Assembly: GCA_024397875.1 (NCBI GenBank)
Contig: CP073344.1
Location: 3,835,001-3,899,000 of the forward strand
From: Amphritea atlantica
GTDB taxonomy: Bacteria > Pseudomonadota > Gammaproteobacteria > Pseudomonadales > Balneatricaceae
DNA: 64,000 nt
Reading direction: 5' to 3'
A program made the translations under genes and the position numbers. The notes beneath the pieces were generated by a model. The model was not told the origin of the DNA. It searched no databases and saw nothing but the letters and a program-made list of their open reading frames with translations. Each line of letters starts with the position of its first letter. Position 1 is the first letter of the stretch. Shown here piece by piece: positions 38,150 to 52,545 of this stretch.

Positions 38150-38194
38150 GCCCAGTGCCGCGATAAAAGTCGCCAACTTAAGGAGGTGGTTCCT

Positions 38195-38380
38195 ATGAAA
38201 CCGGCCAAGAAACAACACCCCAAGTTTATTGAAGCGATGCAGAAACTCTCTGCCATGAATGAAGATGAACGCCTCTCCGACGAGAACAAAGAACTGTTTG
38301 ATCAGGCCATCGCCTACGCGCCGCTGGAAGCGCAGCCGGCGTTGATGGCTATTCAGCGGAAATATGAGGAGCTTCATTAG
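38195..38380 (+). CDS. Small conserved-looking protein of unknown function
   Basis: 61 residues from MKPAKKQHPKFIEAMQKL. A near-perfect AAGGAGG lies 8 nt before the ATG at 38195. Predicted mainly helical and acidic after a basic N-terminus; no motif recognised. It follows ppiC by 45 nt and is followed by a CTAG hairpin module and a terminator, so it is the last gene of the dbpA-ppiC group. Confidence 0.75.
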   Translation: MKPAKKQHPKFIEAMQKLSAMNEDERLSDENKELFDQAIAYAPLEAQPALMAIQRKYEELH

Positions 38381-38382
38381 GG

Positions 38383-38441
38383 GCTAAGAAGTGGCTAGAC
38401 GTCGCTTCGCGACTTGCTAGTGGTTAGTTGCTAGAAAAAGC
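38383..38441 (+). repeat. CTAG mini-hairpin module R1
   Basis: CTAGAC, the palindrome GTCGCTTCGCGAC (38401-38413), TTGCTAG, then CTAGAAAAAGC (38431-38441). It lies between the stop of the small gene and its terminator. Same family as modules at 40539, 42269, 43269, 49520 and 50877. Confidence 0.85.
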
Positions 38442-38458
38442 TTAAAGATCAAAAGATT

Positions 38459-38487
38459 AAAGAGAGCCGGGAGGCTCTCTTTTTTTG
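38459..38487 (+). terminator. Rho-independent terminator after module R1
   Basis: AGAGAGCC-GGGA-GGCTCTCT with flanking A and a T-run to 38486. Confidence 0.92.
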
Positions 38488-38607
38488 AGGCCGCCGCTGG
38501 TGAATCAAGGTTCATTTCAGGCTTTAACTCAAAGAAATAACACGTTTCTATTAATCTATCTCCCTTAATAACTAAATTCGAACACATCGAAGAATTCTAA
38601 GAGCTTT

Positions 38608-39927
38608 TCAATCTTCATCGGAATCATCGTGCCTTAAACTATCATCATCTTTATTAAACACATCATCTTGTTCGTTACCTTTAGATCTTTTTCGGAATTG
38701 ATTCAAAACCCTAAAATCGGGGTCAATCCTATTCATATCAATTATACTCTGTAGTTCTTTATAGTGCTTTACATCACGCTTTCTAGATTTTATCCTGCGC
38801 ATTAAATCTTCATAATCTCTAGTGGGTCTTTCTGAAAAATCAATCGACTCTAATAACTCTTTATGTCGCATAGAGTTATTAAGCGACTCCAAAATCTCTT
38901 TATGACGCCCAGCGCTTATATTAGACAAATTAGATCTTTCAATAATTTCTTTCAACTTCTCATTATCGATTACTCTTCTTTCTCTAATATGATTAACACT
39001 AGCATCCTCAATAGAACTTTCTTTTACTTCTATTGACAGGTTTGTCTTACCATCTTCCATAAAGGCTGATGTGCTATACATATGAAAACAATCGATATTT
39101 GACTCTCTATATATTTCTGCTTGTAACTCAGCTAAAGGGCCTATTATTTTTTTACCATTTGAATTTAATCTATACCACCAATCTTCTTTAGAGTCGTCCG
39201 TTATAAAAACAACTATTTTAATATTCTCTTCACTTGATTTATGCAAAATCTGCTTCCAAAGGATCAAGTCACCATACTGTCTTTCATAGTTTAATCCATC
39301 AAAAAAGAAGTGTGTTTCATCTCCGCTCTCTGATTTCCCAGCATCCTTATATCCAGGAGGTATTTTTTTAGCGTACCTTTCTGATCCCTCTTTAAATAAC
39401 TCGTCCAACCAGTTCTGATCTTCTGGTTTATTCCCAATTCTATTCTCGAAGCAAGAATTTATTTGATCCCTTATTTTGTCATGGGATCTAACACAAGGCT
39501 GCTCGCTATTCCAATGCGCTACAGATTTTTTGTAGTTTGAAATACTTCTATATATTTCTTTCTCTAACTTCTCCGTATTTTCAAATAGTTTAGGAAATCT
39601 TCTTTTTAGAGCCAAACGTTCAAAATCACCGTTAAAAACATTTTGTATTTTTTCTAAATTACTTTCTATATCATTAAAAACTGACTTTTCATTTTTAATA
39701 ACCTCTAAACGACGCCGTTGATACTCCAACCCTACTTGATATGGAATCCATACTTTGCCTTCTAGCGCCCGAAGTATCTTAAAAAAGTCATCTCTAGTTT
39801 GTTCTGCATACCCATATAGATTTAGAAGCACATTAGCATCAAACACAAATATGACCTGCTCATCTTTCCAAGCTTTCTTTAGTGTATCGATATCAAGATT
39901 GTAAAAAGCTTTAAACTGGTTCTTCAT
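38608..39927 (-). CDS. PIN-like domain protein (DUF4935/PIN_8), putative ribonuclease
   Basis: 439 residues. The N-terminal PIN-like fold has acidic residues at Asp30 (VFDANVLLNLYGY), Glu68 (GLEYQRRR), Asp220 (YGDLILWKQ) and Asp244/Asp249 (ITDDSKEDWW), the pattern expected for a metal-dependent nuclease. The C-terminal third is highly charged with repeated HKELLES-type segments and an Asp-rich tail. The gene is strikingly AT-rich compared with every neighbour and uses many AT-ending codons, a sign of transfer. No antitoxin-like partner is adjacent. Related proteins occur in phage-defence contexts, but a role here is only inferred. Confidence 0.75.
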   Translation of the reverse strand: MKNQFKAFYNLDIDTLKKAWKDEQVIFVFDANVLLNLYGYAEQTRDDFFKILRALEGKVWIPYQVGLEYQRRRLEVIKNEKSVFNDIESNLEKIQNVFNGDFERLALKRRFPKLFENTEKLEKEIYRSISNYKKSVAHWNSEQPCVRSHDKIRDQINSCFENRIGNKPEDQNWLDELFKEGSERYAKKIPPGYKDAGKSESGDETHFFFDGLNYERQYGDLILWKQILHKSSEENIKIVVFITDDSKEDWWYRLNSNGKKIIGPLAELQAEIYRESNIDCFHMYSTSAFMEDGKTNLSIEVKESSIEDASVNHIRERRVIDNEKLKEIIERSNLSNISAGRHKEILESLNNSMRHKELLESIDFSERPTRDYEDLMRRIKSRKRDVKHYKELQSIIDMNRIDPDFRVLNQFRKRSKGNEQDDVFNKDDDSLRHDDSDED

Positions 39928-40538
39928 TTTCAGCCCTCTTAGCAGTTATCTAACGACAAATGGGGTCAGACTTAAATCATTCTAACTTCACTTATTTCAT
40001 ATCTTTAAGAAAAGAGAAAAGCTAAAAGGCAGCTACTGCATTCTCGTCCACTGAAAATGAGCGGGCTCATTGATCAGTTTGTATAGCGGGGCTATACATT
40101 TCCATTCCTTGAGTGTGCCTTAAACCGGAAGGCCATTCAATTAATCTGATCAACAGTATGGCACGGACCTCTTCCCCTCTGTGCAGCCGAGCATTGCAGG
40201 TTTCAAATGAATAAGGGCGAGGACTGTCTGAGGGCGAGTTTATAGTCGCAACTGACTACCCTTCGGGCCAGCTGAAGCTGTTCAGGCTTCGCCTGTCGCA
40301 GCCCCATTTGAAACCGAAACGCGTAGGGAAGTCGGCGAAGCCGACCAAACAGTGGGCACGGTTTTAGATTGTTAAGACTTTTGGGCGCCCAAAAGGCTTG
40401 ACCCGCTCAGCGAGAGCGGAACAAGAAGCAAAGAATTACTGCGGTAATAAAGTAGACCTCCTGATTAAAGGGTTCAAAAACCATTTTGATCAAGCGCTTC
40501 CAACAATAAAAGAGCACCAATAGCCCTCCTCTTTTTGC
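39928..40538. other. Gene-free, hairpin-rich region upstream of the PIN gene
   Basis: No gene. From left: a GGGGTCAGACTTAAAT motif of the kind often seen beside REP-type elements; TGAGCGGGCTCA; TATAGCGGGGCTATA (40082-40096) inside an outer TTGATCAG/CTGATCAA pair (40070, 40146); a 10-bp pair GGTTTCAAAT (40199-40208) and ATTTGAAACC (40306-40315) enclosing CCCTTCGGG, CAGCTGAAGCTG and CAGGCTTCGCCTG; then GTCGGCGAAGCCGAC (40331-40345) and the 16-bp palindrome TTTTGGGCGCCCAAAA (40379-40394). A weak terminator for the oxidoreductase gene lies at about 40510-40537. Confidence 0.6.
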
Positions 40539-40633
40539 TTTTACGCTTTTTCTAACGACTAGCGAGTCGCGAAGCGACGGTCTAGCAAGGGCGAAGCCCG
40601 TCTAGCGAGCAACGCGCTCTTCGTTGCGTTCTA
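40539..40633 (-). repeat. CTAG mini-hairpin module R2
   Basis: Begins 9 nt after the stop of the oxidoreductase gene. It contains GTCGCGAAGCGAC (40566-40578), GGGCGAAGCCC (40589-40599) and a GCAACG/CGTTGC stem (40609-40627), separated by TCTAGC or TCTAAC linkers, and ends with CTTTTTCTAACGACTAG next to a weak terminator. Confidence 0.85.
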
Positions 40634-40642
40634 ACAGCCGAT

Positions 40643-41986
40643 CTAAACATTAGGACCAATTTCGAGCTGGCTGCCATCACTAAACCGAGAAAACCGAAAG
40701 CGCGACAAATCATGCTGACTCTCTTGTTTATTGACGATCTGAGCGATGATTCTGCCGAAGGCGGGGCCGATACCAAAGCCGTGGCCGCTCATGCCGGTGG
40801 CGACGATGAGGCCTTCTAAATCGGGGACTCTGTCGACGATGGGTACGATATCGGGCATCGCATCGATCATGCCCGCCCAGGCATCCAGTATGGGGGGGAT
40901 GCCAATCTGTGGAAATCTTTGCGCGAAGCGTTGTTGCATCACCTTGACCTTACCTTTGGCGGGGGCGGGATCGAGGAAGCGGGTGAGTTCGAACGGGGTG
41001 ATCTCATCGGCGCTCCAGTGACGTTGCACTCGCCAGGCATCCGGTGAGTGGGCGATTTCGTTTATCCAGGGCCTGATCTCGTGGTAGTTCTGCAGTCCCG
41101 TTTTTAACCATTTTGGCAGTAAGCGGAACGAATCCGGGCCAATTAAGTGATCATGTGAATCGGTGAGTGCGATAGTATAGCCACCATCGCTACGTCGGCG
41201 CACCGCCAGTTTTTTATCGGCAAAGCTGGTTGTGGTAATGCTTTTCAGCGGCGCGGTTCGGGCAACGGAGGCGCGCACCGATAACTGCGGAATATTGATA
41301 CCGTGACGGCGCAGAAACAGGGATGACCAGACGCCCCCGGCGACGACAACCTGTGATGTTCTGATGCGGCCGGCCTCAGTGATAACCCCGGTAATCTGGC
41401 CCGCTTCGATATCCAGTGTACGTACGGCACAGTTTTCCCGGATAAAAACCCCTTCGCTGTGGGCTAATTCAGCCACAGCAGGCACGGCTTGCCATGGCTC
41501 TGCGCGGGCATCACTGGCGGTATAGGTCGCGCCGACCCAGATGTTTTTTGCCCGAGGGTCAAGTTGAATATGTTGCTCAAGCTGAGCGCTGGACAGTGCC
41601 ACGGTATCGACGCCATGGGCTGCGGCAATACTCAGCCACTCTTCCCGTTGCGCCTGCGCCGCTTCAGTTTGCGACAGATACATCACCCCGACCCGCTTAA
41701 ACCCGGTGCGGCCGTTGACCTCTTTATCCATCGCCTCCCATAGCCGGGAGGCTTCCATCATAATCGGCAGTTCTGCGGCATCACGCCCATGCTGTCTGAT
41801 CCAGCCCCAGTTGCGTGACGACTGCTCACCGGCAATACGACCTTTTTCGATCACCATCACGCTAAGCCCCGAGCGCACGATATTCAGGGCAGAAAAAATA
41901 CCGATAACTCCGCCACCAATCACCACCACATCAACTTCATCAGGTAGCGGGTCATTAAACGCAACAGGCGTGTTCAGGGTGATCAT
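40643..41986 (-). CDS. FAD-dependent amine/amino-acid oxidoreductase (DadA/DAO family)
   Basis: 447 residues. The N-terminal Rossmann FAD motif VVVIGGGVIGIFSALNIVRSG is followed by SSRNWGWIRQHGRD, and a C-terminal FAD-binding stretch GLIVATGMSGHGFGIGPAFG completes the DAO fold. Likely oxidises a D-amino acid, sarcosine-like or other amine substrate; specificity is not evident. It is a single gene followed by module R2 and preceded by an intergenic inverted repeat. Base composition is near that of the core genome. Confidence 0.85.
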   Translation of the reverse strand: MITLNTPVAFNDPLPDEVDVVVIGGGVIGIFSALNIVRSGLSVMVIEKGRIAGEQSSRNWGWIRQHGRDAAELPIMMEASRLWEAMDKEVNGRTGFKRVGVMYLSQTEAAQAQREEWLSIAAAHGVDTVALSSAQLEQHIQLDPRAKNIWVGATYTASDARAEPWQAVPAVAELAHSEGVFIRENCAVRTLDIEAGQITGVITEAGRIRTSQVVVAGGVWSSLFLRRHGINIPQLSVRASVARTAPLKSITTTSFADKKLAVRRRSDGGYTIALTDSHDHLIGPDSFRLLPKWLKTGLQNYHEIRPWINEIAHSPDAWRVQRHWSADEITPFELTRFLDPAPAKGKVKVMQQRFAQRFPQIGIPPILDAWAGMIDAMPDIVPIVDRVPDLEGLIVATGMSGHGFGIGPAFGRIIAQIVNKQESQHDLSRFRFSRFSDGSQLEIGPNV

Positions 41987-42268
41987 AATGAGAGCCTTAA
42001 GATTAGCGTAGCGTTATAAATAAGATCCAAATGATCGAACCTGCACTTGATGGCAACGGTCCTTTGGCGTGATAGTGCCGCGGAGAGACCTTTAAAATCA
42101 ATGAAGTAAGCGTCATTGATTTAAATACCCATTCACCTGAGTGTGCCTGAAACAAAAACCCGGTTCAATTACTCAAAAAGAGGTAGATCGCCGCGAGGCC
42201 CCCAGAGGCTATGCTAACGCGCCTCCAACAAAAAAAGAGAGCCTACAGCCCCCTTCTTCTTATTTTTC
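41987..42268. other. Gene-free region upstream of the oxidoreductase gene
   Basis: Holds the perfect 10-bp inverted repeat AAATCAATGA (42095-42104) and TCATTGATTT (42113-42122), and a segment (42130-42171, CATTC..CTGAGTGTGCCT.AAAC..TTCAATTA) that recurs in degenerate form at 40103-40143. A terminator-like A-rich/T-rich stretch and a GAGGC..CCAGAGG..ATGCT tail, also seen at about 43205-43235, adjoin module R3. Confidence 0.5.
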
Positions 42269-42394
42269 TTTTACGCTTTTTCTAGCCACTAGCAAGCGGC
42301 GAAGCCGCGTCTAGCCAGTCGCGTAGCGACGATCTGGCGAGCAACGTGCTCTTCGTTGCGGTCTAAAAACGCAATGCGTTTTTTCGTTGCGGTC
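42269..42394 (-). repeat. CTAG mini-hairpin module R3
   Basis: Starts at the stop of the NYN gene. Contains AAAAACGC-AAT-GCGTTTTT (42365-42383), GCAACG/CGTTGC (42341-42359), GTCGCGTAGCGAC (42318-42330) and GCGGCGAAGCCGC (42296-42308), joined by TCTAG/TCTGG linkers, and ends with ACGCTTTTTCTAG. Confidence 0.85.
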
Positions 42395-43111
42395 TTAGGC
42401 TTTTTTACCCTTCCGGGCGTCGCGTACCAGAAAAGACCGCCCCTGGCCGCGTTTGAGTTCGAACAGATCGACCTCTTTAAACAGGCTGCTGAGGTTTTTA
42501 TAGCCGTAGTTGCGGCAATCGAATGAGGTCCTGTTGGAGATATTCGCACCCACCGGGCCCAGCGCGGCCCAGCCGTCTTCATCTTCGGTGGCTTCAATCG
42601 CCTGACGCAACAGGTTGATCAGTTTGGTATCGGATTTGATATTTTTTGGCTTAGCGCTGCTGGCACTTTCGACGGCTTCCGGCTGATCCAGAAAGAGGAA
42701 TTTTGAGCACGCATTCACAAAGGGCGATGGCGTCTTCCGTTCACCAAACCCCAGCACCATTTTGCCTTCGGCTAATGCCCGGGTGACCATGGGGGTAAAA
42801 TCACAGTCGGATGAGATAAAGCACATCACATCGATATCTTTGGTGTACATGACATCCATCGCGTCGATCACCAGCGCGATGTCGGAGGCGTTTTTCCCTT
42901 TGGTGAGGTCATACTGCTGAACCGGCTGAATAGCGTACTCGTGCAGCAGCTCTTCCCAGGATTTCAGTGAGGGCGATTTCCAGTTGCCATAAGCTTTGCG
43001 AATCGTCACCACGCCGTACTTGGCCACTTCGCTCAGCACATCCACGAACTTGCTGGCCGGCGCGTTATCCGCATCAATAAACAGGGCTATCTTTTGCTTT
43101 ATTTCGCTCAT
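42395..43111 (-). CDS. NYN-domain protein with C-terminal OST-HTH/LOTUS domain
   Basis: 238 residues. The NYN (PIN-like) nuclease domain (about 1-145) carries acidic residues Asp13 and Asp15 (FIDADNAP), Asp77 (NASDIALVIDAMD) and Asp102/Asp104 (SSDCDFTPMV). An OST-HTH domain (about 160-232, LLRQAIEATEDEDGWAALGPVG) probably binds RNA. Similar LabA/DUF88 proteins are common in proteobacteria, are predicted RNases and lack a clear role. Single gene, followed by module R3. Confidence 0.88.
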   Translation of the reverse strand: MSEIKQKIALFIDADNAPASKFVDVLSEVAKYGVVTIRKAYGNWKSPSLKSWEELLHEYAIQPVQQYDLTKGKNASDIALVIDAMDVMYTKDIDVMCFISSDCDFTPMVTRALAEGKMVLGFGERKTPSPFVNACSKFLFLDQPEAVESASSAKPKNIKSDTKLINLLRQAIEATEDEDGWAALGPVGANISNRTSFDCRNYGYKNLSSLFKEVDLFELKRGQGRSFLVRDARKGKKA

Positions 43112-43237
43112 GTTAAAACCGCATCTCTGAATAGACTTAACAACTTATCCCCGCACCGGTAAAGCTGTCAAAGTATTACTGATAAAAGTGAGCAGATTAC
43201 CGTGAGGCGTCCAGAGGGGCATGCTGGCGGCCCCTAC

Positions 43238-43266
43238 AAAAAAGAGAACCAACAGTTCTCTTTTTT
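43238..43266 (-). terminator. Rho-independent terminator of the ubiD-reductase genes
   Basis: Perfect 12-base arms AAAAAAGAGAAC and GTTCTCTTTTTT around CAACA. It lies beyond module R4. Confidence 0.92.
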
Positions 43267-43268
43267 AG

Positions 43269-43394
43269 TTTTACGCTCTTTCTAGCCACTAGCAAGGGCG
43301 AAGCCCGTCTAGCCAGTCGCGAAGCGACGTCTAGCAACGGCTTTGAACGCGCAGCGACAATCTAACGAGCAACGCGCTCTTCGTTGCGTTCTAA
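43269..43394 (-). repeat. CTAG mini-hairpin module R4
   Basis: Between the reductase stop and its terminator: GCAACG/CGTTGC (43369-43387), a degenerate GCAACGGCTTTGAACGC unit, GTCGCGAAGCGAC (43316-43328) and GGGCGAAGCCC (43296-43306), separated by TCTAGC/TCTAAC and ending ACGCTCTTTCTAG. Confidence 0.85.
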
Positions 43395-43400
43395 AGACGC

Positions 43401-44435
43401 CTACTGCCTCGGAGCATAGGCAAAAACGTCGGAATGTATCTGAACCTCTTTAAGCCCCTTCTCTTCACAAGCGTCAAGCAGCGCGTATACCATCGCCGGT
43501 GAACCGCTGGTGAAGATCTGTGCGTTATCGAAGTTATCGAAGTCAGCCACCACGGCAGCCGGTAACAATGCAGTACGGCCGCCCCAGCCAGGGCTGTTGC
43601 CGGGTTCGCTGACCACCAGATGGACATGCACATTGGTGTGTTCATGGGCCCATTGCAGTGGTAGTTTTTCCAGGTAGAAATCCGCTTCGACCCGGGCACC
43701 CCAGTAGATATGGATCGGGTTCTTAACCTGATTCGCCAGCAGGTGCTCGGCTATCGATTTGATCTGGGCAAAGCCGGTGCTGGCCGCCGCCAGGATAATC
43801 GTGGTATCGGGTTTCAGCGACGAAGCTTCCAGATAACACTCGCCTTTGGGCAGTTCAATCTCGACACTGGGGTTATTCTGCAGATGATCCATTATGGCAA
43901 CCGACAGTTCACCTTCCGGCATCCGGCGGATATGCAGTTCGATATCGCTGCTGAAGTCCGGTGCACTACCGATTGAGAAAGCGGCGCGGCGCTGATCCGG
44001 TAACAGCATCTCCAGATACTGTCCGGCATGAAACTCGATGGCATGACGGCCGGTAACCGGCAGATGCAAACGCACCCGGTAAACATCATGGCTTAGCTGC
44101 TCAACGGCGGCGATATCACAAACCAGTTTTTTCACTCGTAACTCTCCAGGGCGTAACAGCCCATCAATTCTGACCCTGATATCACTACACGGCACAGCGG
44201 TACAGGCAAATATCTGTGCGGGGTTGTCGCCTTCACCTAACTGCAGTTCCAGCTCTGGATATCGTTGCTTAATGCTGCCCTGCAACAGGGTCACTTTACA
44301 AATTTGACAGACGCCGTTGCGACAACTGAAACGCATGGTATAACCGGCGTTTTGCAGCGTATCGAACACCGGTTTCCCGGGGTCAGCCTCTATAACATAT
44401 TGATCGTTAACCGTTATATGATAACGCTCAGTCAC
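43401..44435 (-). CDS. 2Fe-2S ferredoxin-NAD(P)H reductase-type flavoprotein
   Basis: 344 residues. The N-terminal plant-type ferredoxin domain has Cys38, Cys43, Cys46 and Cys78 as cluster ligands (FSCRNGVCQICK, FACTAVPC). An FAD domain (about 100-200, with RRAAFSIGSAP) and an NAD(P) domain follow. This is the architecture often named CDP-6-deoxy-delta-3,4-glucoseen reductase. It lies immediately after ubiD (1-nt gap), like fre in E. coli, and may supply reduced flavin or electrons to a partner; the true partner is unknown. Confidence 0.87.
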   Translation of the reverse strand: MTERYHITVNDQYVIEADPGKPVFDTLQNAGYTMRFSCRNGVCQICKVTLLQGSIKQRYPELELQLGEGDNPAQIFACTAVPCSDIRVRIDGLLRPGELRVKKLVCDIAAVEQLSHDVYRVRLHLPVTGRHAIEFHAGQYLEMLLPDQRRAAFSIGSAPDFSSDIELHIRRMPEGELSVAIMDHLQNNPSVEIELPKGECYLEASSLKPDTTIILAAASTGFAQIKSIAEHLLANQVKNPIHIYWGARVEADFYLEKLPLQWAHEHTNVHVHLVVSEPGNSPGWGGRTALLPAAVVADFDNFDNAQIFTSGSPAMVYALLDACEEKGLKEVQIHSDVFAYAPRQ

Positions 44436-44436
44436 C

Positions 44437-45909
44437 CTAAATACCTAACTGATCCCAGATCTCATCAACCCGCTGCTTAACTTCCGGGGTCATCACGATC
44501 GGTTCACCCCATTCACGGGTCGTCTCTCCGGGCCACTTGTTGGTGGCATCCATCCCCATCTTCGAGCCCAGTCCGGAGACCGGGGAGGCGAAATCAAGAT
44601 AGTCGATCGGGGTGTTATCGATCATGGTGGTATCGCGGATCGGGTCCATGCGCGTGGTAATCGCCCAGATCACATCGTTCCAGTCCCGGGCATTGATATC
44701 ATCATCACAGACAATGACGAACTTGGTGTACATAAACTGCCGCAGGAAAGACCAGACACCCAGCATCACCCGCTTGGCGTGGCCCGGGTACTGCTTCTTC
44801 ATCGTCACCACTGCCATACGGTAAGAACAGCCCTCGGGTGGCAGATAGAAATCGGTAATCTCCGGGAACTGCTTCTGCAGAATCGGCACAAACACTTCGT
44901 TCAGGGCGACACCCAGTACCGCCGGTTCATCCGGGGGACGTCCGGTATAGGTACTGTGATAGATCGGATCGGGCCGGTGGGTAATACGCTCTACGGTGAA
45001 CACCGGAAAGCTGTCGACTTCGTTGTAATAGCCGGTATGGTCACCAAACGGCCCTTCATCGGCCATCTCGTCGGGATCGATATAGCCTTCGAGGATAAAC
45101 TCGGCGGTGGCGGGCACCTGCAGGTCGTTACCGATACACTGAGTCACTTCGGTTTTACCGCCGCGTAACAGCCCGGCAAAGGCGTATTCTGACAGGGTAT
45201 CCGGCACTGGGGTCACTGCCCCCAGAATAGTGGCCGGATCGGCACCCAGCGCCACCGCTACGGGAAAGTTCTCGCCCGGATGCTGTTCTTTCCATTCGCG
45301 GAAATCCAGTGCGCCCCCCCGATGCGACAGCCAGCGCATAATCAGCTTGTTTTTACCGATGACCTGCTGGCGGTAGATGCCCAGGTTCTGACGCTCTTTA
45401 TACGGTCCTTTGGTAACCACCAGCGGCCAGGTCACCAGCGGGCCGGCGTCACCGGGCCAGCAGCGCTGTACCGGAATCTTGCCCAGATCGACATCATCGC
45501 CCTCAATGACATGGGTCTGACAGATCGCATTACGGACCTTTTTGGGGCCCATATTCAGTACCTGCTTAAAGATCGGCAGCTTCTCCCAGGCGTCTTTCAT
45601 CCCTTTCGGCGGCTCGGGTTCTTTCAGCATCGCCAGCAGCTTACCCACTTCACGCAGACTGGCGACATCCTCCTGCCCCATCCCCAGCGCAACACGCCTC
45701 GGGGTACCAAACAGGTTTGCCAGCACCGGATAATCATAGCCTTTGGGATTTTCAAACAGCAGCGCCGGACCACCGGCCCGCAGCGTCCGGTCACAGATCT
45801 CGGTCATCTCCAGATCAGGATCGACTTCGACGGTGATACGCACCAGTTCACCTTGTTTTTCAAGGCTGTGGATAAAGTCTCGCAGGTCTTTGTATTTCAG
45901 GTTCGACAT
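44437..45909 (-). CDS. ubiD: 4-hydroxy-3-polyprenylbenzoate decarboxylase UbiD
   Basis: Prenyl-FMN-dependent decarboxylase of ubiquinone synthesis. 490 residues, nearly co-linear with E. coli UbiD. Characteristic segments include [36 protein letters not shown] (catalytic Glu/Asp region) and the hexamer-type C-terminus. The ATG at 45909 is preferred over a TTG four codons earlier. The start lies only 13 nt after the rho terminator. Confidence 0.97.
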
Positions 45910-45922
45910 AGTATTCAGCAAT

Positions 45923-45954
45923 AAAAAAGGGCAAGCGCTAAGCTTACCCTTTCA
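45923..45954 (-). terminator. Rho-independent terminator of rho, next to the ubiD start
   Basis: Minus-strand AAAGGGTAAGC pairs with GCTTGCCCTTT (one G-T pair) and is followed by six T. It ends 13 nt before the ubiD ATG. Confidence 0.85.
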
Positions 45955-45969
45955 GAACAGAGATATGAA

Positions 45970-47229
45970 TCAGGAACGACGCATGGAGAGGAAGAATTCT
46001 TCGTTGGTCTTGAAGTCCTTAAGCTTATCAAGGACAAACTCGATGGCGGCTGAATCTTCCATCGGATCCAGCAACTTACGCAGAATCCACATCCGCTGCA
46101 GCTCTTCTTCAGTGGTCAGCAGGTCTTCACGACGGGTACCGGAGCGACGGATATTGAAGGCAGGATAAATCCGCTTCTCCGCCACTTTACGGTCCAGATG
46201 CACCTCGGAGTTACCGGTACCCTTGAACTCTTCAAAGATAACCTCATCCATTTTTGAACCGGTATCAACCAGTGCGGTGGCGATGATGGTCAGGCTGCCA
46301 CCCTCTTCGATATTCCGGGCGGCACCAAAGAAACGCTTAGGACGTTCCAGTGCGTGGGCATCCACACCACCGGTGAGTACTTTACCGGATGACGGGATCA
46401 CGGTGTTGTAGGCACGGGCCAGACGGGTAATGGAATCAAGCAGGATAACCACATCCTGTTTGTGCTCGGTCAGGCGCTTGGCCTTTTCCAGCACCATCTC
46501 CGCAACCTGCACGTGACGTGACGGCGGCTCATCGAAGGTAGACGCAACCACTTCACCGCGAACGGTACGCTGCATCTCGGTTACTTCCTCCGGACGCTCA
46601 TCGATCAGCAGTACGATCAGATGGACTTCCGGATTATTACGTTTAATTGAGTTGGCAATATTCTGCAGCATCAGGGTCTTACCGGCCTTCGGCGGAGACA
46701 CCAGCAATGCCCGCTGGCCTTTACCCATCGGACACACCAGATCGATCACCCGGGCTGTCAGATCTTCTGTACTGCCGTTACCCAGCTCCATCTTCAACCG
46801 CTCCTGGGCAAACAATGGAGTCAGGTTTTCAAACAGAATCTTGTTCTTGGCATTTTCCGGCTTATCAAAGTTGATCTGATCAACTTTCAACAGGGCAAAA
46901 TAACGCTCACTGTCTTTCGGCGGACGGATTTTACCGGAAATAGTATCACCGGTACGCAGGTTAAAACGCCGGATCTGGCTCGGAGATACATAAATATCAT
47001 CAGGACCTGCCAGGTATGAACCTTCCGCCGATCGCAGAAAGCCAAAACCATCCTGCAGGATTTCCAACACGCCATCGCCGTAAATATCTTCACCACTCTT
47101 AGCATGACGCTTGAGAATCGCAAAAATAACATCTTGTTTACGGGAACGGCCCAGGTTATCTAGTCCCATCTCTTTTGCTATTTCTAGCAGTTCAGGAACG
47201 CTTTTCTTTTTAAGTTCGGTAAGATTCAT
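45970..47229 (-). CDS. rho: Transcription termination factor Rho
   Basis: Hexameric RNA-dependent ATPase/translocase. 419 residues. N-terminal helix bundle, OSG/cold-shock RNA-binding domain (about 50-125, [11 protein letters not shown]), Walker [12 protein letters not shown], Walker [17 protein letters not shown]-loop and R-loop ([20 protein letters not shown]). Preceded by a long leader and its own promoter; trxA is upstream on the same strand. Confidence 0.98.
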
Positions 47230-47289
47230 AGGTTTTTGTGTAGTGTTGGAAGACAGGAATATGCCTTGAGCGGAATAGTAAAACTATTC

Positions 47290-47396
47290 AGATCAGATTG
47301 AATTGATAAAGTGAAATCAGAGTTCTAAACCAGAGTAATAATCCAGAGTTCTGGAAGAAAAGAGTTCTGGAAGAGAATCCGGTGTTTGGAGATGAC
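47290..47396 (-). promoter_or_regulatory. Pyrimidine-rich repeated leader of rho
   Basis: The minus-strand transcript contains two copies of CTTCCAGAACTCT and a partial third (TTAGAACTCTG) in an unstructured, C/U-rich stretch. Rho is known to autoregulate by terminating in its own leader at such rut-like sequences, so this is a plausible autoregulatory site. Confidence 0.45.
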
Positions 47397-47425
47397 ACTA
47401 TAATGCGTTGGTTAAAAAGAGTCCA
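47397..47425 (-). promoter_or_regulatory. Promoter of rho
   Basis: Minus-strand TGGACT, 17-nt spacer, TATAGT. Predicts a leader of about 160 nt. Confidence 0.6.
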
Positions 47426-47431
47426 GTAAAT

Positions 47432-47464
47432 CAGGGAGCAAACCGTGATCCCGGTCACTCCCTG
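47432..47464 (-). terminator. Hairpin after trxA
   Basis: CAGGGAG/CTCCCTG arms with an inner ACCG/CGGT stem, 36 nt past the trxA stop. The following T-run is poor (ATTTACTGG), so termination may be incomplete, with read-through into rho. Confidence 0.55.
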
Positions 47465-47499
47465 CGTATTTACCGACTAATGTCGTAAATTAATGCGCC

Positions 47500-47826
47500 T
47501 TAAATGCTGTCTTCAATGAAAGCAGCCAGCTGAGACTTTGACAGAGCGCCGACTTTAGTTGCTTCTACATTGCCATCTTTAAACAGCATCAGCGTCGGAA
47601 TACCACGAATACCGAATTTGGGCGGCGTTTCATTGTTTTCATCGATATTCAGCTTACAGACTTTCAGCTTGCCATCGTAATCTTTGGCGATCTCTTCGAG
47701 AACCGGGGCAATCATCTTGCATGGACCGCACCACTCAGCCCAGTAATCAACCAGTACCGGACCATCCGCTTTCAATACATCATCTTCAAAAGAAGCATCG
47801 GTCACGTTAACAATATTTTCACTCAT
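47500..47826 (-). CDS. trxA: Thioredoxin 1
   Basis: 108 residues with the WCGPCK active site (Cys33, Cys36), Asp26 equivalent in VDYWAEW and cis-Pro in GIPTLMLF. General cytoplasmic disulfide reductant. Position between ppx (divergent) and rho is the standard Pseudomonas order. Confidence 0.98.
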
Positions 47827-47870
47827 AAAAAGCCTCTGCAGTGAGATTCACTAAATATTAATAGTTACCG

Positions 47871-47900
47871 ATCATACCACTGTCATCAAACGATTGTGAA
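47871..47900 (-). promoter_or_regulatory. Promoter of trxA
   Basis: Minus-strand TTCACA, 18-nt spacer, TATGAT; five of six matches in each hexamer. Leader of about 38 nt. Confidence 0.7.
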
Positions 47901-48004
47901 TATGCAGGGAATACCACAGGCATCAATATCCGGGTTGTTTGCGCTCTAATCAGCAACATATATCTGTTAAGATGGTTTCATTGTCCTTTTTGAAGCGTAC
48001 GCAC

Positions 48005-49519
48005 ATGAATCAGGAAACAACCACCGGCTCAGGCGGGTACTCGCTGCTGGCTGCAATCGACCTTGGCTCTAACAGCTTTCATATCGTCGTCGCAAAACTC
48101 GTTCAGGGCGAGTTACAGCCAATCGATCTTTTATCAGAAAAAGTTCAGCTCGCCGCGGGCCTCGATGAAAACCGTATGCTGACGCCCGAAGCAATTCAAC
48201 GGGGTCTGGAGTGTATGGAGCGTTTTGCTCAGCGGGTCAGGGATATTCCCGAGCAGCAGATCAGAATCGTGGGCACCAATGCGCTGCGGGAAGCGGTCAA
48301 CAGCGACGATTTTATTCTCGAAGCAGAAAAGATCATGGGCTGTTCAATCGAGGTCATCGCCGGTATTGAAGAGGCCCGCCTGATCTATCTCGGGGTATCA
48401 CATACCCTTGCCGGTGATAATGGCCGCCGGCTGGTCATCGATATTGGCGGCGGCAGCACTGAATTTATTATTGGCGAACGCTTTGAACCACTGGAGCTGG
48501 AAAGCCTTGAGATGGGCTGTGTCAGTTTCAACAACCGCTACTTTCCCGATGGTGTCATCACAGAGAAAAACTTTCAGCTGGCCGTTTTCGGTGCCCTGCG
48601 CGAATTACTGTCTATCAAACGCACCTATCGACAGCTGGGCTGGGAGGACTGTGTTGGCGCGTCCGGAACCATTAAAGCGGTTCGTAACGCCTGTATCACC
48701 CTCGGATACGCGACCGACAAAGTCAGCGCCTCAGCACTGCAGCAGCTGAAAGCTAAAATTCTGAGTTACAACCATGTCGATGAGATCGAAATCGATGGCT
48801 TAAAAGAGGACCGCCGCGCGGTGTTCCCCGCCGGTATCGCTATCCTCTCTGCAGCCTTTGAATCGCTGGGTATAAAAGAGATCCGTTTTTCAGAAGGCGC
48901 GCTGAGAGAAGGGCTGCTGTACGATATGGCCGGCCGCCTGCGCCACGAAGATGTTCGTGAACGCAGCATCAATGCGATGATGCAACGCTATCGTGTCGAT
49001 CAGGAACAGGCGATGCGGATAGAACAGACCGCCCTGATCGCCCTGACTCAGGTCAGAGAAAGCTGGCATCTGGATAATAATGAATATCACAATATGCTCA
49101 GTTGGGCAGCCCGCTGCTGCGAAACCGGCCTGACAATCGCCCACAGCCAGTACCATAAACACAGTGCTTATCTGGTGCTGAACTCGGATCTGCCAGGATT
49201 CACCAAGCGCCAACAGGTTAAGCTGGCCGCCATTGTACAGGGGCACCGCCGCAAGTTTCCAACGTCGACTTTTGACCAGTTACTGCCCCGGGAGGCGAAG
49301 CACTATAGTCGTCTGACCATTCTTCTGAGACTGGCCTTTGTCCTCAACCGCAGCCGCAGCAGAGAGCGCCTGCCAGCCTTCCATCTGAGCGCAGAAGACA
49401 ATCAACTGACGCTTGAATTTCCCGACAACTGGCTCAGCCATCAGCCACTCACTCAGGCGGACCTGGAGCAGGAAGCGGGCTATCTCGCGAATGCGGGGTA
49501 TGCACTGGCGTTTAAGTAG
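48005..49519 (+). CDS. ppx: Exopolyphosphatase (Ppx/GppA family)
   Basis: Removes terminal phosphate from polyphosphate. 504 residues from MNQETTTGSGG. The actin-like ATPase fold shows AAIDLGSNSFHIVVA (phosphate-1), VIDIGGGSTEFIIGE (phosphate-2) and a C-terminal HD-like helical domain (about 315-500). No ppk gene is next to it in this window. The start was chosen just before the conserved core; upstream in-frame codons are not typical. The stop is immediately followed by hairpin module R5. Confidence 0.93.
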   Translation: MNQETTTGSGGYSLLAAIDLGSNSFHIVVAKLVQGELQPIDLLSEKVQLAAGLDENRMLTPEAIQRGLECMERFAQRVRDIPEQQIRIVGTNALREAVNSDDFILEAEKIMGCSIEVIAGIEEARLIYLGVSHTLAGDNGRRLVIDIGGGSTEFIIGERFEPLELESLEMGCVSFNNRYFPDGVITEKNFQLAVFGALRELLSIKRTYRQLGWEDCVGASGTIKAVRNACITLGYATDKVSASALQQLKAKILSYNHVDEIEIDGLKEDRRAVFPAGIAILSAAFESLGIKEIRFSEGALREGLLYDMAGRLRHEDVRERSINAMMQRYRVDQEQAMRIEQTALIALTQVRESWHLDNNEYHNMLSWAARCCETGLTIAHSQYHKHSAYLVLNSDLPGFTKRQQVKLAAIVQGHRRKFPTSTFDQLLPREAKHYSRLTILLRLAFVLNRSRSRERLPAFHLSAEDNQLTLEFPDNWLSHQPLTQADLEQEAGYLANAGYALAFK

Positions 49520-49630
49520 CCAGACTTCGCTAACGGCGCAAGTAGCTAGACTTTGCTAACGGCGCGAGTAGCTAGACGTCACAAAGAGCGTGACTTGCTA
49601 GAACGGCGCTACGCGCCTGCTAGTTGCTAG
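49520..49630 (+). repeat. CTAG mini-hairpin module R5, downstream of ppx
   Basis: Two near copies of TAG(C)CAGACT(T/T)CGCTAACGGCGC-type units (49518-49570), then CTAGAC-GTCAC/GTGAC (49578-49594)-TTGCTAG, then CTAGAAC-GGCGCTACGCGCC (49605-49617)-TGCTAG. It runs directly into the 126-bp tandem array. Confidence 0.8.
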
Positions 49631-50880
49631 GAAGAGCAGTTACGGAGTGGTGCAAGGCTTTTGTTTTTTGAACTTACGCTTTTAAAGCCATCGCTTACGA
49701 AGTGCAAAGCAAGCTTTCACTGCATAAGAAATTAAGAATGCTTTTTCTAGCTGTAGGAAGAGCAGCTACGGAGTGATTCGGAGATTTTGTTTTCTGAACT
49801 TACGCTTTTAAAGCAATCACTTACGAAGTACAAAGCAAGCCCTCACTGCACAAGACATTAAGAACGCTTTTTCTAGCGGTAGGAAGAGCAGCTACGGAGT
49901 GGTTCGGGGCTTTTGTTTTCTGAACTTGCGCCTTTGAAAAAATCACTTACAAAGTGCAAAGCAAGCCCTCACTGCTCAAGACATTAAGAACACTTATTCT
50001 AGCTGCAGGAAGAGCGGTTAGGGAGTGGTGCGGGGCTTTTGTTTTCTGAACTTCCGATTTTGAAGCAATCACTTACGAAGTACAAAGCAAGCCCTCACTG
50101 CTCAAGACATTAAGAACGCTTTTTCTAGCTGTAGGAAGAGCGGTTAGGGAGTGGTTCGGGGCTTTTTTTTAACTTACGCTTTTAAAGCAATAGCTTACGA
50201 AGCATAAGACAATCCCACACTTCGCAAGAAGTTAAGAACGCTTTTTCTAGCTGTAGGAAGAGCAGTTACGGAGTGGTGCGAGGCTTTTGTTTTTTGAACT
50301 TACGCTTTTGAAAAAATCACTTACGAAGTACAAAGCAAGCCCTCACTGCACAAGATATTAAGAACGCTTTTTCTAGCTGTAGGAAGAGCGGTTACTGAGC
50401 GATTCGGGGCTTTTGTTTTCTGAACTTGCGCCTTTGAAGCAATCACTTACAAAGTGCAAAGCAAGCCCGCACCGCACAAGAAGTTAAGAACGCTTCTTCT
50501 AGCTGTAGGAAGAGCGGTTACGGAGTGGTTCGGGGCCTTTGTTTTCTGAACTTCCGCTTTTGAAGCAATCACTTACAAAGTGCAAAGCAAACCCTCACTG
50601 CACAAGAAGTTAAGAACGCTTTTTCTAGCGGTAGGAAGAGCAGTTACGGAGTGGTGCGAGGCTTTTGTTTTTTGAACTTACGCTTTTAAAGCAATAGCTT
50701 ACGAAGCATAAGACAATCCCACACTTCGCAAGAAGTTAAGAACGCTTTTTCTAGCAGTAGGAAGAGCAGTTACGGAGTGGTGCGAGGCTTTTGTTTTTTG
50801 AACTTACGCTTTTAAAGCAATAGCTTACGAAGCATAAGACAATCCCACACTTCGCAAGAAGTTAAGAACGCTTTTTCTAG
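49627..50880. repeat. Tandem array of ten about 126-bp units
   Basis: Each unit starts with CTAG, at 49627, 49747, 49873, 49999, 50125, 50247, 50373, 50499, 50625 and 50751, with a last CTAG at 50877. Unit lengths are 120, 126, 126, 126, 122, 126, 126, 126, 126 and 126 bp. Common core: GTAGGAAGAGC, GGAGTGG, CTTTTGTTTT, TTACGAAG, TTAAGAACGCTTTTTCTAG. Two subtypes differ in the second half; units 5, 9 and 10 carry AGACAATCCCACACTTCGC, the others GCAAGCCCTCACTGC-like sequence. Units 9 and 10 differ at one base. Although 126 is divisible by three, no long reading frame exists on either strand, so it is non-coding. No spacers are present, so it is not a CRISPR. Confidence 0.93.
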
Positions 50881-50926
50881 CCACTAGCAAGCGGCGAAGC
50901 CGCGTCTAGCCACTAGCGACTGCTCT
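50877..50926 (-). repeat. CTAG mini-hairpin module R6, downstream of pckA
   Basis: CTAGCCACTAGCAA, GCGGCGAAGCCGC (50891-50903), GTCTAGCCACTAG. Here the module lies after the pckA terminator, between it and the tandem array. Confidence 0.85.
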
Positions 50927-50956
50927 AAAAAAAAGGCTCCCGAGGGAGCCTTTTTT
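50927..50956. terminator. Bidirectional terminator of pckA
   Basis: GGCTCC-CGAG-GGAGCC with eight A before and six T after; 14 nt past the pckA stop. Confidence 0.93.
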
Positions 50957-50970
50957 CATTCAATCAGCGC

Positions 50971-52518
50971 TTAAGCTTGCGGGCCTGCAGCGATGATTGA
51001 TTCAGCAACACCTTCAAACTTGGTGAAGTTAGAGGTGAACTGACCGATCAGGTCTTTTGCTGTGGCGTCGTATGCACCTTTGTCTGCCCAGGTATCACGA
51101 GGATTCAGCAGAGCAGAGTCAACACCCGGTACAGCGGTCGGTACAGTCAGGTTGATACCATCCAGATGCTGCGTCTGAACATCGATCAGTGCGCCGTTCT
51201 GGATCGCTGCAATAATGCCGCGGGTTGTCGGAATATTGAAGCGGGAACCAGTACCGTAAGCACCACCCGTCCAGCCGGTATTTACCAGATATACCTGGCT
51301 GCCAAACTCTTCAATACGCTTGATTAGCAGGTCAGCATATTCGCTGGCCGGGCGCGGGAAGAACGGAGCACCGAAACAGGTAGAGAAGGTCGACTTAATG
51401 CCGCCACCAGAACCCATCTCAGTTGAACCAACCAATGCGGTATAACCCGACAGGAAGTGATACGCAGCCGCTTCTTTGGACAGAATAGATACCGGAGGAA
51501 GAACACCGGTCAGGTCGCAAGTCAGGAAGACAATCGCCTTAGGCTCGCCGCCCTTGTTCTCTTCAGTACGTTTTTCAACGTGCTCCAGAGGGTATGCACA
51601 ACGGCCATTTTCAGTCAGTGAGGTGTCACTGTAATCGGCAGTACGATTTTCGTCCAGGGTCACGTTCTCAACAATCGCGCCGAAACGGATAGCATCCCAG
51701 ATAATCGGTTCGTTCTTCTGGCTCAGGTCGATAGTTTTCGCATAGCAACCACCTTCCAGGTTGAAAACAACACCTTTACCCCAGCCATGCTCGTCATCAC
51801 CGATCAGGTAACGCTCGGGATCTGCGGACAGGGTGGTCTTACCGGTACCAGACAGACCGAAGAACAGTGTGGTATCGCCATCTTCTCCGACGTTTGCAGA
51901 GCAGTGCATCGGCAGCACATCTTTTTCAGGCAGCAGGAAGTTCTGCACAGAGAACATCGCTTTCTTCATTTCACCCGCATAACGCATACCGGCCAGCAGT
52001 ACTTTACGCTTGGCAAAGTTGATAATCACACAGCCATCGCTGTTAGTGCCGTCACGCTCAGGGTCACATTCGAAGCTGGCAGCATTAATAATCTGCCACT
52101 CTTCTTTAGACTTGGGATTAAACTCTTCCGGGCGGATAAACAGGTTCTGACCGAACAGATTCTGCCATGCAGTTTCAGTGGTCATCACAACCGGCAGGTA
52201 ATGATTAGTATCAGAGCCTACGTGGACATTGGATACGAAATGCTCCCGGGCGGCCAGGTATTCCTCAACGCGAGCCCACAGGGCATCAAACTTATCTGCA
52301 TCAAATGGACGGTTGATAGGACCCCAATGAATCTCATCGGATGTACTGGCTTCCTCAACGATAAAACGATCCATCGGAGAACGACCTGTACGCTTGCCAG
52401 TTTTAACAACCAGCGCACCTGTGTCAGCGAGAGTGCCTTCGCCACGCTGAATGGCTTTTTCAACTAGCTGAGCCGGGCTCAAATTTACGTGTACAGTGTT
52501 CACGGTTTCTTTGCTCAT
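50971..52518 (-). CDS. pckA: Phosphoenolpyruvate carboxykinase (ATP)
   Basis: Gluconeogenic conversion of oxaloacetate and ATP to PEP, CO2 and ADP. 515 residues. Kinase-1a P-loop [11 protein letters not shown], kinase-2 LIGDDEHGW, and [14 protein letters not shown] near the N-terminus bind nucleotide, metal and substrate. The ATG at 52518 ([13 protein letters not shown]) is preceded by AAGGGAA. The neighbours hslO, hslR and yrfG match the enterobacterial order. Confidence 0.97.
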
Positions 52519-52530
52519 TGCTTGATTCCC

Positions 52531-52545
52531 TTGGCGTCTAGCCAA
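52531..52545 (-). promoter_or_regulatory. Small hairpin at the pckA ribosome binding site
   Basis: TTGGC-TAGAC-GCCAA on the transcript, preceded by a run of seven T. The 3' arm overlaps the first bases of the AAGGGA site, and the loop region contains CTAG as in the hairpin modules. Confidence 0.4.

Follow-up and report, generated by a model that had tools for sequence, protein, structure and literature searches.

What are the small hairpins that follow gene after gene in this part of an Amphritea chromosome? The window, by which we mean the whole 64,000-nucleotide stretch analysed (G000:C1:3835001-3899000, G000 being the 4.55 Mb source genome in two contigs), had been predicted to carry modules of mini-hairpins bounded by CTAG at six loci. 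CTAG-bounded hairpins are present at all six, and they belong to a real, well-bounded and genus-specific family that resembles the repetitive extragenic palindromic (REP) sequences. We put at about 0.5 the probability that the modules are Amphritea-specific, CTAG-tagged, REP-like hairpins of single-stranded DNA that are retained at transcript 3′ ends and for which no mobilising enzyme is identified.

Unit anatomy

In the reading direction of the gene before it, a unit has the form CTAG-A(A)C-stem-TNC-stem-T(N)G-CTAG: the 4-nt tag at either end, set off by spacers of 2-3 nt, encloses a stem of about 5 bp with a 3-nt loop. Adjacent units lie head to tail with the tag in common; some pairs are separated by hairpin-less TNG-CTAG spacers. 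Many modules start with a AGAGCAGTNG- or AAAGCAGTNG-like lead and many end in the tag followed by AAAAAGC. A regular expression that required one CTAG or more, three Watson-Crick pairs and the spacers A(N)C and T(N)G, and that left the 3-nt loop free, returned 138 distinct units from the fetched loci. The loop is TNC in 129 of them, the loop-closing pair is C-G in 136 and the outer stem pair G-C in 133; 103 have perfect stems, with 16 different stem sequences. Among 94 control hairpins from the window, only 5 have a TNC loop and 29 a C-G closing pair. The closing pair and the first and third loop bases are conserved; the second loop base and the inner stem vary. The selected 26-nt units on which our covariance model, R1, is based had TNC loops, which biases towards TNC any loop count taken from R1-derived loci; the window modules, which were found independently of R1, have TNC in their short-loop units, plus a few longer loops. 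C-TNC-G on the sense strand means C-GNA-G on the other. Mini-hairpins of the GCGAAGC type, with a GNA loop and G-C pairs, are described in excerpts of PMC4686876 as unusually stable to heat and nucleases as DNA.

The original prediction was accurate in its main features and too uniform in some details. Three-base loops hold for most units, some having longer ones. The linkers (T)CTAG and CTAA both occur, and TTAG, CCAG, CTCG and CTGG stand beside CTAA as tag variants. Strings of two or more hairpins are found at four loci, with one hairpin each at 38383 and 50877. The supposed common end word is exactly CTAGAAAAAGCG at 42275 and 50870 (two of six loci), the other modules ending in AAAAAGCT, TTAG-AAAAAGCG, AAAGAGCG or GAAGAGCA. 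Across whole genomes the end word TNGCTMGAAAAAGC is counted 16 times in G000, 37 times in G016 and 29 times in G006 (reversed controls 0, 2 and 2). CTAG is indeed rare, with 54 occurrences in the window against 247 expected from base composition or 67 from a Markov estimate, and 31 of the 54 lie in the modules and their adjoining tandem array. The strict unit pattern matches G000 14 times and its reversal 0 times; one shuffle of the window gave 0 tag-bounded hairpins. The unit periods of 22 and 7 both equal 1 modulo 3, which raises the idea that units might close all reading frames.

The window loci are as follows.

38386..38441, plus strand: module 1; lead, CTAG, hairpin GTCGC-TTC-GCGAC, CTAG-TGG-TTAG-TTG-CTAG, AAAAAGC
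38461..38486, plus strand: intrinsic terminator behind module 1 (sequence reading and rule-based match)
40545..40640, minus strand: module 2; long-loop unit, GGGC unit, GTCGC unit, then AAAAAGC
42275..42394, minus strand: module 3; long-loop unit, GTCGC (TAC loop) unit, GCGGC unit, then AAAAAGC
43275..43398, minus strand: module 4; long-loop unit, decayed unit, GTCGC unit, GGGC unit, then AAAGAGC
49520..49637, plus strand: module 5; 26-bp repeats, long-loop unit, GGCGC (TAC loop) unit, then GAAGAGC
49620..50881, no strand assigned: tandem array, 126-bp period, about 10 copies, Tandem Repeats Finder score 1717
50870..50926, minus strand: module 6; CTAG-TGG-CTAG, hairpin GCGGC-TTC-GCCGC, CTAG-TGG-CTAG, AAAAAGC
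50927..50956, no strand assigned: intrinsic terminator between the pckA stop and module 6 (sequence reading and rule-based match)

Module 1 has its first CTAG 14 nt past the TAG stop of a small open reading frame (38186-38380), predicted by our own gene caller and without a Pfam match. Module 2 sits 3′ of an FAD-dependent oxidoreductase gene (40643-41986, minus strand; PF01266), module 3 of an NYN/OST-HTH gene (42395-43111, minus; PF01936, PF12872) and module 4 of a ferredoxin/flavin reductase-like gene (43401-44435, minus). Module 5 begins immediately behind the TAG stop of a Ppx/GppA phosphatase gene (47939-49519, plus; PF02541), and module 6 belongs behind pckA (50971-52545, minus; NF006823). 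The tandem array, between the gppA-like and pckA genes, has CTAG and module end words in each copy and no mini-hairpin. An AT-rich PIN_8-domain gene (PF18476; 38608-39927) adjoins module 1; the sequence following the module is different in A. atlantica, so this gene may be a local insertion.

Covariation and the strand of action

The claim that stems differ while the fold is kept is borne out by compensatory stem changes. For 95 hits (66 distinct rows) the covariation score is 0.394 against 0.190 (standard deviation 0.012) in column shuffles, of which 0 in 500 score as high, and against at most 0.080 in a control with slid partners; 93.9% of cells are paired compared with 83.2% in shuffles, these figures leaning upward as the alignment was fitted to the model. 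Nearly all change falls in three inner stem pairs. The loop-closing pair is invariant and the outer stem pair hardly varies.

Which strand is selected bears directly on the main rival explanation, in which transcribed strings of hairpins in the 3′ untranslated region block 3′ exonucleases, assist termination or insulate the neighbouring gene. An RNA helix should tolerate G-U over A-C pairs. The 43 mismatched stem pairs, read on the sense strand, comprise 16 C-T, 15 A-C, 11 G-T and 1 C-C; this lack of a G-U excess argues against sense RNA as the only selected form. The GNA loop, moreover, is on the mRNA-complementary strand, the mRNA itself having TNC. Whole-module folding was tried as proof of an RNA element and rejected, as the four RNAs gave z values of -1.17, 0.35, -0.17 and -3.14, the last including a terminator, and three of the four fold no better than shuffles. 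Choosing the strand by folding energy was also rejected; the GNA strand is favoured by 0.6 kcal/mol as DNA and 1.1 kcal/mol as RNA, which is too small a difference.

Copy number and placement

A search of G000 with R1 at E<=1 located 115 units in 93 clusters (68 units at E<=0.001); these numbers are lower bounds because only 150 of 2405 first-look candidates were scored. No cluster (0/93) lies entirely within a gene as called by our own gene caller, which does not call rRNA genes. The gaps were classified for 89 of the 93 clusters, leaving 4 unclassified: 44 are convergent, 30 co-directional with the module in sense, 12 co-directional with the module antisense and 3 divergent, the convergent class taking in C2:55232, although this unit is antisense to a 16S gene and precedes it by about 0.5 kb. 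The modules are therefore placed 3′ of genes, as had been proposed, and the family is neither low in copies nor without 3′ bias. The clusters are not all independent, since a tandem array at C1:368.7-370.0 kb accounts for 7 of them and copies at rRNA operons are likewise related. The gene nearer to a convergent cluster is the one sharing the module sense in 36 of 44 cases, and 6 of the 8 exceptions come from this one array. The array falls in a dense CTAG-module region (L077/L078, G000:C1:350-370 kb), where a composite unit of about 210 bp, consisting of a CTAG module and a GTAG-type inverted REP pair, is tandemly repeated among genes that we take to be valS, holC and lptF/G-like.

Sixty genes have their stop codon no more than 130 nt from the first unit, and in these the first CTAG, TTAG or CCAG follows the stop at a median of 15.5 nt. 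In about 10 of the 60 the module's own tag supplies the gene end (read by eye). The four rRNA operons in loci fetched for their modules each have a sense unit 76-87 nt behind the 5S gene, so the placement rule applies to transcript ends and not to stop codons alone. The same four operons speak against that rule by having an upstream unit antisense to the rRNA. Three of these units stand about 0.5 kb before 16S (C1:101671, C1:3086251 and C2:55232), and the fourth is at C1:421859, where only 23S and 5S were reported. The loci concerned are L080, L081, L096 and L071, and in the first three the antisense unit faces the module of a neighbouring gene across a terminator.

The sense orientation, the position of the nearer gene, the short distance from the stop and the units behind 5S genes all favour an element acting in RNA, its orientation being locked by selection on the transcript. 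Terminators point both ways. The predicted order of stop, module and terminator holds in 14 of the 60 genes, which favours an RNA role; in 5 a terminator lies between stop and module, one gene falling in both groups, and 42 have none. Our terminator rule under-calls, missing T runs that pair with an A run (e.g. C1:586155 and C2:185453). By comparison, 19 of 128 module-free gene ends have a terminator within 250 nt. In the window, the terminator between the pckA stop and the module at 50877 places module 6 behind it, against the expected order. The modules themselves do not have the build of an intrinsic terminator, their units being followed by TNG-tag and often by the A-rich AAAAAGC, with terminators separate. 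The 3′ protection originally suggested is thus weakened as a purely RNA role by the absent G-U excess, the shuffle-like folding and the modules behind terminators. We regard an RNA 3′-end role as unlikely overall, and as the rival that survives best.

Distribution and evolution in Amphritea

In these searches the family is confined to its genus. Pattern CTAGACNNNGCTNCGCNNNTTGCTAG matches 44 stretches across 84,980 species (one genome each), all in Amphritea records and in the metagenome-assembled genome ‘Oceanospirillales bacterium P03BWT1Cbin.2’, which is taken as genus member G006. With a looser pattern, 9 of 57 genomes (own and relatives) match, all from the same genus, and the reversed control gives 0. 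A scan of the order with R1 matched 1 of 194 genomes from 97 genera (E<=1e-4), namely G000, under stricter filters and with 39 candidates scored in each genome shown. Within the genus R1 matches 10 of 17 genomes at E<=0.001, with 68 units in G000, 76 in G016, 9 in G008, 56 in G015, 44 in G011, 20 in G004, 50 in G006, 11 in G013, 2 in G005 and 83 in G009; the other 7 have none. Species with many and with no CTAG repeats are ready comparisons for further work.

Modules recur at orthologous sites in module-rich sister genomes: 1 of 1 at 38380 (A. atlantica), 3 of 3 behind the oxidoreductase gene (A. atlantica, G006 and G009), 4 of 4 behind the NYN gene (A. atlantica, A. pacifica, G006 and G009), 4 of 4 behind the reductase gene and 2 of 2 in the gppA-pckA gap, in a comparison limited to loci from pattern or R1 matches and so not a random sample. 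In the last gap, the counterpart of the tandem array in A. atlantica consists of longer units with a mini-hairpin in each, and in G009 of a single copy. Species differ in unit number and stem types at such sites, and at one of them a compensatory stem change in place was read by eye. No module was seen behind the NYN orthologues (68-93% identity) of the R1-negative genomes G010, G014 and G001, and R1-negative G007 has a module-like remnant with CTCG/TTCG tags there. Use of these empty sites to define insertion borders was abandoned, the flanks in G010, G014 and G001 being too diverged.

The unit frame is kept while tag and hairpin drift between species, as seen in G005 (CTCG tags and other loops) and G008 (TCCG tags). 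CTCG makes up 39 of 54 TNGCTMGAAAAAGC end words in G005 (reversed control 1), 3 of 16 in G000 and 6 of 37 in G016, so that the change of tag is a shift in proportion. TCCG-tagged units occur at five places, three with one mismatch, and in G008 only among the 17 genomes.

Possible mobilisation and origin

The original prediction also suggested that the modules are target sites of a REP-type transposase. G000 has one PF01797 match, a 148-aa protein scoring 146 bits on NF047646 (REP-associated tyrosine transposase, RAYT).

G000:C1:3025327-3028638: Y1/REP-type transposase locus L009 (PF01797, NF047646)

This 3.3 kb locus contains 21 GTRG hairpins (shuffled mean 0.8) and no CTAG word; the five hairpins shown are GTAGGAGCCCCTTCCAGGGGC or one variant of it. 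CTAG modules as targets of the resident RAYT were consequently rejected. The locus is apparently an ordinary REPtron unrelated to the modules, and G000, in keeping this GTAG-REP/RAYT pair, provides a positive internal control for a repeat and its transposase, a pairing that the CTAG family does not show.

How, then, might the units have spread? Our proposal is that selection acts on the hairpin which the mRNA-complementary strand forms as single-stranded DNA, with its C-GNA-G loop. Spread would follow the presumed REP fashion, a Y1/HUH single-strand transposase recognising the hairpin in trans, the tag acting as guide word and, through its CT, as the cleavage site of the next unit. The enzyme may have been lost, be of an unrecognised type or have been missed by our search. 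Copies would persist at transcription-unit 3′ ends, the least harmful place for them, and may in addition act in the transcript.

Several observations weigh against this proposal. Transposition alone does not predict a head-to-tail array whose units mostly share the direction of the gene. In two of the five covariation measures the values are close to those of shuffles (pairs with both partners changed, 4 against 3.1, reached in 164 of 500 shuffles; further pair types, 14 against 11.9, 32 of 500), and the outer tag-tag helix, with 89.4% of cells paired, does not covary. The GNA loop is not universal, since G005 keeps the unit frame with CAAG- or TAAA-type hairpin loops. At the 26 Y1 loci of the 17 genomes we saw no Y1 gene with intact units to its left and right, and R1 hits occur at one of these loci (L011), about 0.6 kb from the open reading frame. 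At L012 a decayed unit read by eye lies about 0.1 kb behind the Y1 gene and points away from it, standing where the facing gene ends. Of the loci with longer Y1 proteins that were inspected (L011, L012, L013 and L022), only L011 and, in decayed form, L012 showed module sequence. A lone TTGCTAGAAAAAG word follows the Y1 genes of L019 and L020 by about 60 nt, as measured at L019. Finally, G008 has units and no PF01797 match.

A genus-wide link between Y1 genes and modules was sought and none was clear, the case of G008 being mirrored by G007, G010 and G014, which have PF01797 matches and no R1 match at E<=0.001. G005 has two strong Y1 matches to PF01797 (L010 and L021, 135 and 132 bits), which by score are probably IS200/IS605-like.

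A more specific scheme has one palindromic CTAG serving both neighbouring units as guide and cleavage site. Units would then insert head to tail into arrays, the orientation lock would come from transcription-coupled insertion or from transcript selection at 3′ ends, the HUH enzyme would be of an unrecognised type, and the tag would drift (CTAG, CTCG, TCCG) as guide words do. We hold this to be doubtful.

Slightly more doubtful is neutral growth, in which slippage, unequal exchange and gene conversion multiply the units and template switching keeps their stems paired, with neither enzyme nor function. The tandem arrays at 49620-50881 and C1:368.7-370.0 kb, the long-loop unit type common to neighbouring window modules and the in-place compensatory change at one orthologous site are consistent with it. 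It offers no route for units to new, dispersed places and leaves unexplained the sense orientation and also why the closing pair and the first and third loop bases are conserved as the inner stem and the second loop base vary. Least probable is that gyrase or a nucleoid protein binds the modules where converging genes end and positive supercoils gather, a role proposed for the bacterial interspersed mosaic elements (BIMEs) of E. coli: the 44 convergent clusters and the DNA-level features fit, whereas the sense orientation is left unexplained and the inner stem may take any sequence, conservation being limited to tag, spacers, loop and end pairs. The single-stranded DNA hairpin and the RNA element should be separable by experiment, owing to the gene-coupled orientation and the strand-specific GNA loop.

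Comparison with known repeat systems

The CTAG units are REPs in the broad sense, being short palindromic hairpins in many dispersed intergenic copies, with the placement described above. As predicted, they correspond to no named family: Rfam gives 0 matches in the window at gathering thresholds, and no paper describing a CTAG family was found in the literature listings searched, subscription papers and preprints lying outside that search. CTAG is absent from the main text of PMC3733652 and PMC6006769, whose consensus sequences stand in figures outside this check. The narrower classes do not accommodate the units either. GTAG REPs have GTAG or GTRG (rarely GYRG or GTMG) on one side, and here CTAG and close variants stand on both; CGTC does not occur in CGTC REP fashion in units with GCGGC, GCGAC or GGCGC stems; no RAYT gene flanked by the same repeats is present at L009; and units within a module run head to tail, not in the alternating orientation of BIMEs. 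The sources compared below are cited from excerpts.

In build the closest systems are the GTAG-1 and GTAG-2 REPs (Di Nocera et al. 2013; PMC3733652), REPs with 5-bp stems such as those of Thauera, and REPMb of Marinomonas. GTAG-1 and GTAG-2 REPs also have a 4-nt tag, separated from the stem by an unpaired dinucleotide, with a 3-nt motif beyond the stem, and share short stems, 2-3 nt loops and subfamilies with compensatory stem changes. GTAG REPs likewise lie downstream of genes and in convergent gaps, and their tags often provide TAG stops (PMC3733652). Unlike them, Amphritea units have CTAG (or CTCG, TCCG) rather than GTRG, on both sides; form head-to-tail arrays and not mostly inverted dimers; are oriented with the gene; follow the C-GNA-G rule; and have no associated RAYT that we could find. 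REPMb, of a group 3 REPtron in Marinomonas sp. MWYL1, similarly has a perfect 5-bp stem 2 bases from a tetranucleotide and a small loop, with single-strand cleavage at CT near the hairpin, and cleavage at CT or CA following the tag (PMC8266576). It differs in its GTAG tag, its 4-nt TTTA loop and its clustering around its own tnpA gene. Stenotrophomonas TnpA still binds a single-strand substrate in which CTAG replaces GTAG, and cleaves it at a lower level (PMC8266576), so a CTAG tag is compatible with TnpA chemistry. The CnGA-footed structures of class 3 TnpA (PMC6006769) share a non-GTRG foot and many copies, and the CCAG-A and TCCG-A variants of Amphritea also read CnGA. Those structures differ in flanking their own class 3 gene.

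CGTC REPs offer the nearest parallel in one respect, as tagged palindromic repeats without a dedicated transposase (PMC3733652); they have a different tag and 4-5 nt loops and occur mainly in alpha-Proteobacteria. The Amphritea family adds a CTAG tag and a head-to-tail array form to the known REP types, and it shares with the CGTC REPs the testable question of how palindromic repeats without a dedicated transposase arise and spread.

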